From Pseudochrobactrum asaccharolyticum (GTDB taxonomy: Bacteria > Pseudomonadota > Alphaproteobacteria > Rhizobiales > Rhizobiaceae): 64,000 nt of DNA. The DNA lies in contig NZ_QNRH01000010.1 of NCBI RefSeq assembly GCF_003314995.1, forward strand, positions 1-64,000. Direction: 5' to 3'. Position 1 is the stretch's first letter. Each line of letters begins with the position of its first letter. The notes beneath the pieces were generated by a model. It had not been told where the DNA came from and ran no database searches. It worked only from the letters and a program-made list of their open reading frames with translations. Shown piece after piece: positions 2,151 through 42,185 of the stretch. Made by a program: the position numbers and the translations under genes.

Positions 2151-2577
2151 CCTTCCCTCCTGCCATTATGACAACACGCTATCTCTGCAAAAACTCCACA
2201 CAACAAAAACAAAATATGCTTAATTATTGATTAAGCATATACTTTTAAAATAATACAATAAATTTTATAATTATAAATTACACTTCTATGTAAAAATTAT
2301 CTCTAACAAGGCAAAATATTCATCTAACTATTTGATCAAAATTGGTTTTTTATTATAGTTTAAATTTTAAAAGTGATTTTTAATCACTGAACAAAGGCAC
2401 AAATCATTGTTGTGCATTGAAAAAAATCAACTATCAACAGCAATTCACAGCGTCTATTAGCTCTTTCGAATCTGTCTTGACTCTTCCCTAAGAAGAGAAC
2501 AGATGTAGAACAGAATTGTAATTTGAAAGTTTATCGACCATTTTGCGCACTCGTTTGCGCCACGGATTTTTTGTGCC
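2151..2577. other. A+T-rich intergenic region between autotransporter and polY operon
   Basis: This 427-base stretch holds the divergent promoters of the autotransporter (leftward) and of the Y-family polymerase operon (rightward). It is very A+T-rich between 2200 and 2450. Short open frames here have no ribosome site or protein-like composition. The one recognisable element is the LexA box at 2497-2511. Confidence 0.6.
2497..2511 (+). promoter_or_regulatory. LexA (SOS) box GAAC-N7-GAAC
   Basis: GAAC AGATGTA GAAC is an exact match to the alphaproteobacterial LexA operator (GTTC-N7-GTTC on the other strand). It lies 66 bases before the polymerase start. A translesion polymerase directly downstream of such a box is the expected target, so the box and the gene support each other. 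Confidence 0.82.
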
Positions 2578-3852
2578 ATGCGTAAGCCAGAAACCATTGA
2601 ACGATTATATTTGGATTTTGACGGCTTCTTTGCGAGCGTTGAACAGCAATGTGACAAGCGCTTGCGCGGCAGGCCGGTTGGAGTAGTGCCGTTTGAAGGC
2701 ACAGATCGGACGGCCGTCATTGCCTGCTCAAAAGAAGCTAAAGCCTATGGCGTGAAAAACGTCATGAAGATTAAGGACGCAAAAGCACTGTGTCCGGATC
2801 TGATATTGGTGCCACAAAAGCCAGATCTATATCGCCGCGCTCATAACGCCCTGCTCTGCGAAATCGAATCCGTCATTGCAATCGATACAGCCAAGAGCAT
2901 CGACGAACTGACCTGCATTCTGGATGAGCGCGGTCGGCGCGATCCGGAGGGGCTCGCCCATAAAATCAAGGAAACAATCAAACTGAATGTCGGCGAGTTC
3001 ATCACCAGCTCTATTGGCTTTGCAGCGAACCGGCAGTTAGCAAAAATGGCCTGCAAAGCCGGCAAGGATGCCAGCAAAAGAGCCGGCCAATATGGCAACG
3101 GCTTAGCGATCTGGCACCCGAATATGATGCCGAACCCGTTATTTGAGGTGAAGCTGGCCGATGTGCCAGGCGTTGGCGACAACATGCGGATGCGCCTTGC
3201 CCATAGCCAAGTCATCACCACCGAGCAGCTTTATAATCTGCAGCCCAAGCACATGCGTAAAATCTGGCGCAGCGTGAATGGTGAGCGCCTTTGGTATGCC
3301 CTCCACGGCTATGATATCCAAGCCATACCGCAGAAACGCGGTATGTTTGGGCATGGGCGCGTATTGCCACCTGAAAGCCGCAGCATCAACGGAGCCTATG
3401 AGATTGCCCGCCTCTTGCTTGTGAAAGCTGGCAGACGCTTACGGCGTGAGGAATACTATGCCGAGGCTTTATGGCTTTGGCTGTCTGTCCGTGATGACTC
3501 ATGGTTTCGCATTGTGAAAATGCCAACGGTTAACGATGAGCAAGCCATTATGACAGCCCATAGAATGCTGTGGGATTATGTGCGCCGTGAGCTGCCGCGA
3601 AACACAACCATATTTCGTGTCGGGATAACGCTTGCCGATCTGAGCCAAGCCAATGCCCGCCAGCTGGATATCTTCAATAACGACGATGTAATCAGACAGA
3701 AATGGGAAAGAGCCAACGGCGCAATGGATGCGCTTAATGCCAAATACTCCAGCACGATCGTGCATATGGGAGAATGGAAGCCACCTGCAGGCGGTCATGT
3801 TGGCGGTAAGATCAGCTATGTCCGTATCCCATCTGCAGAGGACTTCTACTGA
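2578..3852 (+). CDS. Y-family (DinB/UmuC-type) translesion DNA polymerase
   Basis: A 424-aa protein opening with the Y-family motif YLDFDGFFASVEQ (metal-binding D13, aromatic steric gate F18), the second catalytic pair SIDE (D109/E110), the palm/thumb helix-hairpin segment LADVPGVGDNMRMRL, and a little-finger region. Near residue 360 RQLDIF fits the beta-clamp-binding consensus QLxLF. It should insert nucleotides opposite damaged bases. It is the first gene of an SOS-boxed operon with ATG/TGA overlaps to the next two genes. It differs from host DinB in lacking the usual opening residues and resembles mobile-element UmuC/DinB-like proteins; that comparison is from memory. The start is fixed by the motif position and by spacing to the LexA box. 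Confidence 0.85.
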   Translation: MRKPETIERLYLDFDGFFASVEQQCDKRLRGRPVGVVPFEGTDRTAVIACSKEAKAYGVKNVMKIKDAKALCPDLILVPQKPDLYRRAHNALLCEIESVIAIDTAKSIDELTCILDERGRRDPEGLAHKIKETIKLNVGEFITSSIGFAANRQLAKMACKAGKDASKRAGQYGNGLAIWHPNMMPNPLFEVKLADVPGVGDNMRMRLAHSQVITTEQLYNLQPKHMRKIWRSVNGERLWYALHGYDIQAIPQKRGMFGHGRVLPPESRSINGAYEIARLLLVKAGRRLRREEYYAEALWLWLSVRDDSWFRIVKMPTVNDEQAIMTAHRMLWDYVRRELPRNTTIFRVGITLADLSQANARQLDIFNNDDVIRQKWERANGAMDALNAKYSSTIVHMGEWKPPAGGHVGGKISYVRIPSAEDFY

Positions 3853-19158: not shown

Positions 19159-19273
19159 CTTTTGTTGCTGCTGAGATCACGGTAGTTTGACACAAACATA
19201 ATTATCTCTGTCGGATAAACCCACATCTTACTTTGTGGTCAATAAAGGAATCCCATCGACCACCGTGAAGCTT

Positions 19274-19411
19274 TTACATTGCTTCGCAGAGTTTTTCGAT
19301 GTGGTAATCGCAGAGTTCCTCAAGTGTCATTGGGCTTGATGCATCCAACGCCGGAGCCGCCATTACAGCGCCTGCCACCGGTGCAGCACGGAGGAAAGAG
19401 CGACGGTTCAT
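19274..19411 (-). CDS. Small Tat-signal-like protein, last gene of ant operon
   Basis: A 45-aa protein: NRRSFLRAAPVAGAVMAAPA is a twin-arginine-like leader followed by a 25-residue tail (MTLEELCDYHIEKLCEAM). Its ATG overlaps the antirepressor stop as ATGA, so the two are translationally coupled. Too short for a known enzyme. Function unknown. Confidence 0.55.
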   Translation of the reverse strand: MNRRSFLRAAPVAGAVMAAPALDASSPMTLEELCDYHIEKLCEAM

Positions 19412-20148
19412 GCTGCGCCCCTCATTCTCAAATCATCAGGAACGCGCTCATTAAGGTATTTCAACCCTTTAGGCGTGATAAATGCCTGCGGACGCACCTT
19501 ATCATCCACAATGGAAGTCTTTACCTCAAAGATGCCCATCTGGATGAACTGAACACGAGCCACCAGATTGCCACCCTGATAAAACAGGTAGTGCTCTTTC
19601 AGCCAGCGGATAAACAAGTTCGGGCGGCAATTAAATGCCCGTGCCGCATTTTGAAGCCCATAGAGGCCATCGGCATTCATGAACTGATCGAAGAACTGAG
19701 TTTTCGGCTTATCCGCTTCAATCCGGCTCTCAAGTTCGATAACCTTCTCGCTGTACGAAAGAAGCAAACCCCGCATTGCAGCCGGATTATTAAGAACTGC
19801 AACCGGATCAACCGCATTTTTAGCTCGACGCTCACATTCGATGAAATACTGACGAGCCTGCTTGCCCTTCTCATTGCGTTCAACCATGGCAAGCTCTTTC
19901 GCCATGTCTAACGAGATATAGTACTCGCGGCTTGGACGCCCACCAGATGAAGTTTTACTCAATTCTGAGTAAAAGTCCTTTCCCTCTTCAAAGGCATATT
20001 CAGTGATCCGGCGAGACACCCAATCATTGAAGCGAACTCCAACTTCAAGAAATGAATACAACTCACGTGCATTAACCGTCTGGATTGTCTCTGATCCGAT
20101 AGCCCCTTCCATAACGGCAGGGAATACAGTATTGTCATTGGTAGACAT
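19408..20148 (-). CDS. Phage antirepressor (AntA/AntB domain plus C-terminal ANT/KilA-C domain)
   Basis: A 246-aa protein. The N-terminal AntA/AntB region (VNARELYSFLEVGVRFNDWVSRRI...YYISLDMAKELAMVERNEKG) is followed by a KilA-C-type DNA-binding region (GLQNAARAFNCRPNLFIRWLKEHYLFYQGG). Such proteins disable a phage repressor to trigger lytic growth. The start at the second ATG was chosen for its GAGG ribosome site. It is preceded by a ribbon-helix-helix gene on the same strand and faced by a divergent one, as in the P22 immI locus (arc-ant with mnt). Confidence 0.88.
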   Translation of the reverse strand: MSTNDNTVFPAVMEGAIGSETIQTVNARELYSFLEVGVRFNDWVSRRITEYAFEEGKDFYSELSKTSSGGRPSREYYISLDMAKELAMVERNEKGKQARQYFIECERRAKNAVDPVAVLNNPAAMRGLLLSYSEKVIELESRIEADKPKTQFFDQFMNADGLYGLQNAARAFNCRPNLFIRWLKEHYLFYQGGNLVARVQFIQMGIFEVKTSIVDDKVRPQAFITPKGLKYLNERVPDDLRMRGAA

Positions 20149-20187
20149 TTGATACCTCATCGTTTCATTTGTTATGAAAAAGCTGGA

Positions 20188-40602: not shown

Positions 40603-40903
40603 CGTCGGCTCCTTGGCTGAAAAATCCACGTTCTTGGATGAAATTCCCACGTTCATGGGTGGCTCCTTTGTTACGTTTCAAATCAGTGACGACTTGAGAC
40701 GAAACCGGAGCAACCAGTGCATGGAGCCAGTGGGAAAGATTGCGCTGCGCATATTGAACAAAAACAGGCATGCGCAGATACACCGCCAAAGGACGGGAAT
40801 TGATGGCCGAGACGATCAGAGGGAAGAGAAAAACCGCCTCGGCCTCACCGGTGGGAGGAGTAACCGGTGATATGAAACTGATTAATGGGGTCGCGGGGCT
40901 CAT
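40595..40903 (-). CDS. Early-operon protein of unknown function, 102 aa
   Basis: It starts MSPATPLISFISPVTPPTGE; the ATG overlaps the cro-like stop (ATGA) and its own stop lies within the next gene's start. A Pro/Ser-rich N terminus is followed by a hydrophobic middle. Weakly supported by sequence, better by its coupling on both sides. Confidence 0.5.
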   Translation of the reverse strand: MSPATPLISFISPVTPPTGEAEAVFLFPLIVSAINSRPLAVYLRMPVFVQYAQRNLSHWLHALVAPVSSQVVTDLKRNKGATHERGNFIQERGFFSQGADDD

Positions 40904-41118
40904 GCTGCGCGATCCTTTTTCTTTGGATGTGACAGTTTATCTCGCTCCAGTCGCATATATGCGCGGACTTCGATTTCTGTTTCTGGCCACACTCTGCCGC
41001 CTGCACGGAGCCTTTCAATTAGACGTCCGTTTTTGGCCGCTTTGATCCCAAAGCGAAAGGTGCCAGTTCCGGTCTCAGATAGAAAAGCTTCAATTTCTTC
41101 GAGAAGTTTCTTGCTCAT
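40900..41118 (-). CDS. Cro-like DNA-binding protein
   Basis: A 72-aa protein starting MSKKLLEEIEAFLSETGTGTF. FGIKAAKNGRLIERLRAGGRVWPETEIEVRAYM is a helix-turn-helix of the Cro kind. The upstream in-frame ATG at 41172 would read through the operators and promoter; the promoter TTGCAT-N17-TATATC ends about seven bases before the chosen ATG, implying a nearly leaderless message. Divergent from the CI-like gene with shared operators, as expected for Cro. Confidence 0.75.
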   Translation of the reverse strand: MSKKLLEEIEAFLSETGTGTFRFGIKAAKNGRLIERLRAGGRVWPETEIEVRAYMRLERDKLSHPKKKDRAA

Positions 41119-41124
41119 AAATAC

Positions 41125-41193
41125 GATATACACGCAATCGCGTGCATATGCAATACACGCAACTACGTGCACACGCTTTTCCGTGCATATGAT
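41125..41193. promoter_or_regulatory. Repressor/cro divergent promoter region with three operators
   Basis: Palindromes of form CACGC-N4-GCGTG: O1 41131-41144 (perfect), O2 41156-41169 and O3 41172-41185 (one mismatch each). The leftward promoter is TTGCAT (41153-41148), 17 bases, TATATC (41130-41125), with O1 filling the spacer. The rightward repressor promoter has -10 TATGAT (41188-41193), 11 bases before the repressor ATG, and a poor -35, with O3 in its spacer. The same palindrome recurs at 43256 and 43285. Confidence 0.85.
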
Positions 41194-41204
41194 AAAAACA
41201 AGAC

Positions 41205-41606
41205 ATGGTAGAAAACTGGAAAACCCGCCTATTAAAGGCTGTTGATGAAGACCCTAGATCCGACCGAGCCATCAGCTTGGCGGTTGGCCTTGGCGTGAAC
41301 ACAGTTAACGAGCTGCGCAATACCGATAAATCCCCCAGTATTGATAAAGTTCTCAAGTTGGCAGCGGAGCTTGGTCTGAATCTTGGATATGTACTGTGGG
41401 GTGGCGATCAAGATAAATCGCCCATCCGCGGGGATAAAGAAATCCTCCAAACCCTGCACCGGATTGAAGGTCTGGATCAGCGCGGCGTGGAAGTTGTGTT
41501 CTCGGTGATCGATACAGTCATCAATCGTCAGCCTTCCAAACAAGAACAGTCATCCTCTGGTGATCAACTTGAGCTCGCCACTCCCCACCGTGAGCCAAAG
41601 CCATAG
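41205..41606 (+). CDS. CI-like prophage repressor, short form without peptidase domain
   Basis: A 133-aa protein. The N-terminal helix-turn-helix is SDRAISLAVGLGVNTVNELRNTDKSPSIDKVLKLAAELGL. The C-terminal 60 residues are helical (KEILQTLHRIEGLDQRGVEVVFSVIDTVIN) and show no LexA/S24-type Ser-Lys peptidase, so RecA-stimulated self-cleavage is not expected. Its ATG follows the -10 by about 11 bases, so the message is nearly leaderless. Induction should depend on an antirepressor; two candidates are in this window (the ant gene at 19.4-20.1 kb and the LexA-boxed gene at 41521-41739). Confidence 0.85.
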   Translation: MVENWKTRLLKAVDEDPRSDRAISLAVGLGVNTVNELRNTDKSPSIDKVLKLAAELGLNLGYVLWGGDQDKSPIRGDKEILQTLHRIEGLDQRGVEVVFSVIDTVINRQPSKQEQSSSGDQLELATPHREPKP

Positions 41607-41739
41607 ATTCAGCTAACTCCTTAGCTTGGAAATCGACCTTTCTCATAGCCGCCAGCAGGCCGCCATTGAGCGTAGCTACACGGAGCAATTCCAGCTTATC
41701 AGCTTCTTTTCCTTTTTGGATGCGAGCAAACTTAATCAT
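41521..41739 (-). CDS. LexA-controlled small protein, convergent with the repressor (candidate antirepressor)
   Basis: A 72-aa protein: MIKFARIQKGKEADKLELLR, then a helical middle and the tail GGEWRAQVDHQRMTVLVWK. A GGAG site lies eight bases before the ATG and a perfect LexA box 91 bases upstream. Its 3' end overlaps the last 86 bases of the repressor gene on the other strand. Small LexA-controlled antirepressors beside non-cleavable repressors are known in coliphage 186 (Tum) and Gifsy-type prophages. This gene fits that role by position; antisense transcription across the repressor is a second route. Confidence 0.65.
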   Translation of the reverse strand: MIKFARIQKGKEADKLELLRVATLNGGLLAAMRKVDFQAKELAESMALAHGGEWRAQVDHQRMTVLVWKADD

Positions 41740-41829
41740 TCACCAACTCCGTGGATAACCTCTCACAACACGCTAACTGCACTTGCAAGAATCTCGCTTC
41801 CCGCAAGCGCTTATCATTTCACAAAATGA

Positions 41830-41844
41830 GAACATAGCAAGAAC
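41830..41844 (-). promoter_or_regulatory. LexA (SOS) box GAAC-N7-GAAC
   Basis: GAAC ATAGCAA GAAC, an exact match to the alphaproteobacterial LexA operator, 91 bases upstream of the leftward gene at 41739. It is the second such box in the window; no other exact match was noticed in the intergenic regions checked. Confidence 0.8.
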
Positions 41845-41972
41845 GATTTAACACAAGCGAACAGATTTTTAACGGACTATTAAGGACGCACTAGATGTGG
41901 TGGAGTTGAGGTTTGGGGAGCACAAATAGACGCCATGCACTCAATTGTGACGGTTCATATACGATAGGATAC

Positions 41973-42185
41973 CTAGGCGGCTTTAAAGCGTCGAAAGCCA
42001 AACACAGCAATTACAATACCGATCAGCGCTAATACAGCGCCGCCGACACCAACAAACATCGCATCACTGCACTGAATGCCCGGACAGCGATAAGAAGCAT
42101 CGGAAAGCGCAACCAATGCTATCAATAACGCAGCGCCAGTCACAAATAGGCCGGTAGCGATTACAGCGATATAAAGCTTCTTCAT
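41973..42185 (-). CDS. Small two-TM membrane protein
   Basis: A 70-aa protein: IAVIATGLFVTGAALLIALVAL and MFVGVGGAVLALIGIVIAVFGF are two membrane segments separated by a short loop with two cysteines (CPGIQCSD) that may form a disulfide in the periplasm. The RBS is GGAGATATG. Probably a lysogenic conversion or host-type small protein; unknown function. Confidence 0.6.
   Translation of the reverse strand: MKKLYIAVIATGLFVTGAALLIALVALSDASYRCPGIQCSDAMFVGVGGAVLALIGIVIAVFGFRRFKAA

Follow-up and report, generated by a model that had tools for sequence, protein, structure and literature searches.

A candidate SOS-controlled antirepressor gene convergent with the gene of a short prophage repressor in Pseudochrobactrum asaccharolyticum

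How could a prophage sense DNA damage when its repressor carries no self-cleavage domain? The question is raised by two overlapping genes in a window of 64,000 nucleotides of Pseudochrobactrum asaccharolyticum (contig NZ_QNRH01000010.1). The element that carries them is a tailed-phage prophage, with family matches for portal, head morphogenesis, tape measure, small terminase, RecT and replication initiation; an attachment repeat was searched for around tRNA-Phe and none was found. An earlier note on this DNA had described a 133-aa helix-turn-helix (HTH) repressor lacking an S24 region, with a 72-aa gene on the opposite strand lying over its last 86 bases. The open reading frames agree with this description. 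The CI-type repressor gene occupies 41205-41606 (+; ORF list, Pfam, AlphaFold) and does encode 133 aa. The 72-aa candidate antirepressor gene, which carries the motif HGGxW....DH, occupies 41521-41739 (-; ORF list, PHROG profile, AlphaFold). The two are convergent and share 86 nt at their 3' ends (41521-41606).

A LexA-type box lies upstream of the 72-aa gene at 41830-41844 (-; pattern search and homologue comparison). Its forward-strand letters are GAACATAGCAAGAAC, read as GTTCTTGCTATGTTC on the strand of the small gene. The exact GAAC-N7-GAAC box announced earlier is therefore present, while its distance from the start codon has to be corrected from 91 to 90 nt. GGAG at 41747-41750 (-), read from the sequence, is the probable ribosome-binding site of the small gene. 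A search of 40800-42000 for sigma-70-like promoters gave none. On the other side of the repressor gene stands a divergent gene in the cro position (40900-41118, -; ORF list; MSKKLLEE...). It has no Pfam family at E up to 1 and its best PHROG match is phrog_13097, of unknown function (E 0.00079). Three ACACGCAATCGCGTGCATATG-type repeats, probably operators, are located between this gene and the repressor gene (41130-41150, 41155-41175 and 41171-41191).

The repressor matches HTH families only in Pfam at E up to 1, the best being HTH_3 (E 0.0017, 18.8 bits for a Pfam cut-off of 23). Neither Pfam nor the AlphaFold model reveals an S24 peptidase domain. The RstR family (CTXphi repressor, NCBIfam NF041951) reaches 24.8 bits (E 2.1e-5), below its 80-bit cut-off. 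In the model, the HTH helices fall within residues 5-65 and are followed by a two-helix C-terminal hairpin (76-85 and 92-108); from about residue 110 on, the model shows a low-confidence tail, which is nearly the part overlapped by the small gene. The homologous repressors are also short (62 proteins of 113-162 aa, median 137, with starts set by rule). HTH_3 was found in 45 of 60 repressors of a first set and in 17 of 29 candidate ORFs of a second. S24 was absent among the matches listed for the first set (25 of 32 families) and among all 15 matched families of the second.

The 72-aa protein matches PHROG 32610, a family of unknown function (E 2.1e-28). No Pfam family, the AntA/ANT domain included, was found for it at E up to 1, no NCBIfam model fitted, and the sequence comparison with solved structures returned nothing convincing (best E 0.075). 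AlphaFold predicts a helix (13-50) followed by a beta hairpin (54-59/64-69) with a mean pLDDT of 79. Block means are 92-97 for residues 31-70 and 52-65 for residues 1-30, the helix being of low confidence before residue 31. Members of the family share the invariant residues M46, A47, H50, G51, G52, W54, D59 and H60.

Homologues of the small protein were collected at 97 loci, reduced to 75 groups after removal of near-copies (grouping by common 12-mers). Not counted are the copies L009, L010 and L017, duplicates from places already sampled (L001, L019-L036, L083-L109, L125-L132 and similar ones), two weak copies from this genome (C15; window 19208-19351) and G436. Alignment A3 excludes L158, which lies at a contig end, and L164. 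Start codons were picked by a length rule. With single-protein queries the family was detected in 19 of 297 genomes (E up to 0.001) and 23 of 394 (E up to 0.0001), this genome counted; an order-level profile search, in which at most 14 candidates were scored per genome, retained 5 of 397, again including this one. Among 50,697 phage records, tblastn with the window protein (E up to 0.01) returned RHph_N3_2 only, and its relatives used as queries added two records labelled Synechococcus phages and one chance-level match. Neither an enterobacterial phage nor a record of Rhizobium phage 16-3 was among these matches, in a collection that may or may not include 186, N15, Gifsy and 16-3. Plasmid records gave no match to the small protein.

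A few host labels in this sample call for caution. In the two records labelled Synechococcus phages, OM868082.1 (L124) and PP438429.1, the small protein is 70% identical to a rhizobial one; L124 additionally has the repressor and the box, and the host label looks doubtful. A record labelled Bacillus subtilis (JAHREI010000013.1, L007) encodes a small protein 93% identical to that of the window, perhaps through contamination.

Is the box more than a chance match? If it were not, the gene pair would be unrelated to the SOS response. The window alone could not reject this explanation: GTTC-N7-GTTC occurs there twice for 1.55 expected, a count equalled in 46 of 100 shuffles, and the 93 matches of the whole genome are not a clear enrichment over the 80 obtained with the reversed control. 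The significance of the box is drawn instead from the comparison of homologues, in which boxes were scored only when exact, in gene orientation and within 500 nt. Of the 75 groups, 51 have such a box before the small gene, compared with a mean of 0.64 and a maximum of 3 of 75 for control 500-nt windows elsewhere in the same loci (200 draws), and the opposite orientation was observed in a single group. GTTC-N7-GTTC is the commonest tetramer pair at spacer 7 (the next occurs in 25 groups), and when all tetramer pairs at spacers 3-12 were counted no other reached 51 groups. In 12 aligned upstream regions, picked among box-bearing loci, 11 of the 12 invariant columns fall in the box. The exact box is absent within 500 nt in the other 24 groups, which include the isolated phage RHph_N3_2 (gene pair EVB98_045/046). 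A chance origin, in whose favour these 24 groups count, was rejected by the homologue test and appears highly improbable.

The rest of the genome offers points of comparison. The other box of the window (2497-2511) lies just upstream of a gene for a Y-family (impB/mucB/samB) polymerase (2578-3852, +; Pfam). GTTC-N7-GTTC also stands upstream of lexA, recognised by its Pfam LexA DNA-binding domain match, and before apparent recA, uvrA and Y-family polymerase genes, whose identities were read from the translations. At the level of motifs, the small gene would belong to the LexA regulon: the box is present in the window and in the majority of groups, and lexA itself has it.

The association with a repressor gene is recurrent as well. 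A homologous HTH repressor gene, convergent with the small gene, was found in 67 of 75 groups, an uncorrected count that has to be read against the rate at which other small phage genes face an HTH gene. The overlap ranges from 4 to 134 nt (median 89) and reaches at least 30 nt in 64 of the 67. By locus, the partner is present in 62 of 64 from the window and the related-locus search, one of the misses being a contig end, and in 26 of 32 of the genome and named-phage set, where only ORFs of 95-185 aa were considered in the genome loci. The 8 groups without the repressor include 5 that also lack the box. The indirect SOS switch proposed in the earlier note, a LexA-controlled small gene facing a non-cleavable repressor, is supported in so far as sequences can support it, since the arrangement recurs in diverged phages and prophages.

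The position beside a repressor gene might nevertheless be that of a cargo gene. The small protein could be an SOS-induced effector acting on a host target, such as a cell-division factor, or an adaptor sending the repressor to a protease. The repressor alignment has no invariant column, and the invariant motif of the small protein is more conserved than the repressor, which could reflect another, more constant partner. Moreover, in 14 of 75 groups (e.g. L008, L013, L043, L045, L172) the small gene is immediately preceded by a gene of about 85 aa without Pfam match, and in 11 of these 14 the box stands before that gene, suggesting that the operon can carry other functions. The frequent company of a convergent homologous repressor, and the joint absence of box and repressor in 5 of 8 groups, are difficult to reconcile with such roles, which we consider unlikely.

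Relatives of the 85-aa gene also occur in other settings. A solitary chromosomal one is found in this genome (L057:783-1034, -; E 1.2e-7) with a box 17 nt before its start. At L005:3600-5230, an apparent outer-membrane protein gene has a truncated copy of the 85-aa gene on one side and the small gene on the other, each of these two having a box. Apart from this family, three loci of the present genome, L062, L068 and L069 (G000 C2, C19 and C1), have similar ORFs, one of them integrase-like by eye, and GTTC-N7-GTTC at the start of a small gene, possibly corresponding to another SOS-linked mobile element.

A second palindrome, AGGA[AC]N4[GT]TCCT, was observed in front of the small genes: upstream windows totalling 37.5 kb contain 30 sites, compared with 1 in 846 kb elsewhere (examples are the promoters of L044, L124 and L133). 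It is present in 12 of 24 groups without the box and in 13 of 51 with it. In 12 site pairs its first base is 29-31 nt beyond that of the box, and in 4 the two overlap. The palindrome is absent from the promoter region of the window itself and is not clearly enriched in host genomes (sets of five and six), and no common neighbour gene emerged from the comparison of ten other sites.

The convergent overlap raises the question of whether the transcript or the protein is active, and the earlier note had left room for both. An SOS transcript running through the repressor gene into the cro-position gene could lower repressor synthesis by antisense or transcriptional interference, the peptide being incidental. 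The convergent layout of most groups would allow this, as would the common strand of the small gene and the cro-position gene. Codon comparisons, expressed as pairwise sums that are not independent, point to the protein. In the small gene, the summed dN/dS over 12 distinct colinear relatives is 0.06 for codons 1-44, which are free of overlap, and 0.17 for codons 46-61, which lie within it. The first value indicates strong purifying selection on the non-overlapping part of the small protein. The repressor frame (sums without L018 and L037) behaves differently, with 0.045 in the C-terminal part just outside the overlap (10 distinct sequences) and 1.58 inside (7 distinct sequences). This contrast, together with the low-confidence modelled tail, suggests that the small frame is the constrained one over the overlap and that the repressor tail is a passenger.

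The purifying selection outside the overlap, and the coherence of a family whose members are only 19-35% identical to the window protein and of which all 53 members of alignment A3 match PHROG 32610, require a function of the protein. In addition, L050 and L053 have overlaps of no more than 4 and 8 nt, so that antisense is hardly the whole mechanism. Of the two mechanisms proposed earlier, the protein antirepressor is therefore favoured and antisense alone disfavoured; as sole mechanism the latter seems very unlikely, while convergent transcription may have an added effect.

Which part of the repressor might the small protein contact? The repressor was split by position, the C-terminal part being defined as the last 38 residues before the overlap. 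Similarity between small proteins is correlated with that of the C-terminal parts (rho 0.27, p 0.002; 500 permutations, 60 rows) and not with that of the HTH (rho 0.03, p 0.22). Among 26 pairs of small proteins at least 85% identical, the HTH parts are less than 40% identical in 12. In this genome, the small protein encoded by a second copy on contig C8 shares 90% identity with that of the window along 63 aligned residues, and the copy stands beside a repressor with a different HTH. In 20 loci compared by eye, related repeats were kept with the HTH type of the window and not with other HTH types. The correlations and the comparison of repeats suggest that the exchanged unit consists of the HTH and the operators, and the retained unit of the C-terminal part, the small gene and the box. 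This pattern fits, as support rather than proof, an antirepressor that would touch the C-terminal hairpin; the correlation is weak, and physical linkage alone could give it.

We consider it likely that the 72-aa gene encodes an SOS-induced antirepressor that inactivates the 133-aa repressor, most probably through its C-terminal hairpin. This reading builds on the observed gene pair, box, conservation, selection, linkage and operator-like repeats. In the lysogen, host LexA bound to the box would keep the 72-aa gene off, and the 133-aa repressor, devoid of a self-cleavage domain, would occupy the repeats beside the cro-position gene. Upon DNA damage, cleavage of LexA would allow the 72-aa protein to be made. 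This protein would then inactivate the repressor; the most likely way is that its helix docks on the two-helix C-terminal hairpin, a presumed dimerisation element. The repressor would leave its operators and the early genes would be expressed. The small protein is thus probably the wake-up signal of the prophage.

The prophage has another potential source of antirepression. An AntA/KilAC antirepressor gene is located at 19408-20157 (-) of the window, with no GTTC-N7-GTTC nearby. It is followed by a small ORF (19208-19351, -) with a twin-arginine-like start, the same HGG motif and one in-frame stop. A similar small ORF exists on G000:C15 (28711-28845; L074), where the preceding AntA/KilAC-like gene was read by eye only. 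Since the prophage encodes this distant antirepressor, two antirepression inputs may coexist. The 72-aa protein, for which the same kind of activity is proposed, has no Pfam match to AntA/KilAC antirepressors.

Several known systems resemble the proposed one. Coliphage 186, with Tum, and N15 possess an SOS-controlled antirepressor directed against a repressor that RecA does not cleave, as proposed here; their genome layout differs from that of the window. In the pairs SinI/SinR and CI/Mor, a small partner protein acts on an HTH repressor. SinR is found among the PDB matches through HTH similarity, whereas the 72-aa protein matches no solved chain by sequence.

A close parallel comes from the Gifsy prophages. 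According to the available part of Lemire et al. (2011, PMC3121763), Gifsy-1, -2 and -3 produce LexA-controlled antirepressors (GfoA, GftA, GfhA) against short non-cleavable repressors such as GfoR/GtgR, a common antirepressor can inactivate heteroimmune repressors, and coliphage 186 and N15 are named as similar. As far as that text goes, both systems have a short repressor without cleavage motif (136 aa in Gifsy, 133 aa here) and an antirepressor gene under LexA, represented here by the box. They differ in the site of the antirepressor gene, which in Gifsy is away from the immunity region, whereas here it forms part of that region and runs convergently into the repressor gene, with an overlap. 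The best reading is that the candidate would work like the Gifsy and 186 antirepressors, but in a family represented in the databases used as PHROG 32610 alone, for which no link to the known antirepressors was found, and with another gene layout.

Other reports, each taken from the part of the source available to us, touch on single aspects. In linear plasmid phages, a phage small protein acts on the phage repressor and leads to lysis, as is proposed here, but independently of SOS; the repressors surveyed there were all autoproteolytic (Silpe et al. 2023, PMC10432266). The immX region of Rhizobium phage 16-3, cited in PMC10460002 as having two overlapping repressor cistrons, is likewise a rhizobial phage immunity region with overlapping genes; phage AP-16-3 is mentioned in the same paper. 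Rhizoviticin of Allorhizobium is recA-dependent and was assigned to a LexA-family repressor (PMC10811719). A Bro-domain antirepressor occurs in phages of related bacteria (PMC8631192), and the use of LexA by phages in general has been treated (PMC9437464). Sinorhizobium prophages have CI/Cro-like pairs (PMC5537653), phiLM21-like prophages were not induced in preliminary UV and mitomycin tests (PMC12429752), and a mitomycin-inducible Brucella phage has a pair formed by a repressor and a divergent gene (PMC4729917). No published description of this family or arrangement was found in the literature covered, largely papers outside subscription and partly seen.

The locus offers a concrete candidate answer as to how Rhizobiaceae prophages with short non-cleavable repressors could sense DNA damage, and a testable function can be proposed for an unnamed phage protein family. 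It also provides a natural set of swapped repressor heads on one common effector module. A single conserved antirepressor could work across many immunity specificities, since the HTH and operators are swapped while the small gene remains linked to the C-terminal part. More tentatively, and with the balance somewhat against it, a single LexA-wired antirepressor family might recognise the common C-terminal hairpin of repressors whose DNA-binding heads are often swapped, such that one SOS signal, or the protein of one prophage, would release several heteroimmune Rhizobiaceae prophages at once. If this were true, the present genome, with its copies in the window and on C8, would be an example of multi-prophage release, and the convergent overlap would keep the antirepressor and the C-terminal domain together as a single heritable cassette.
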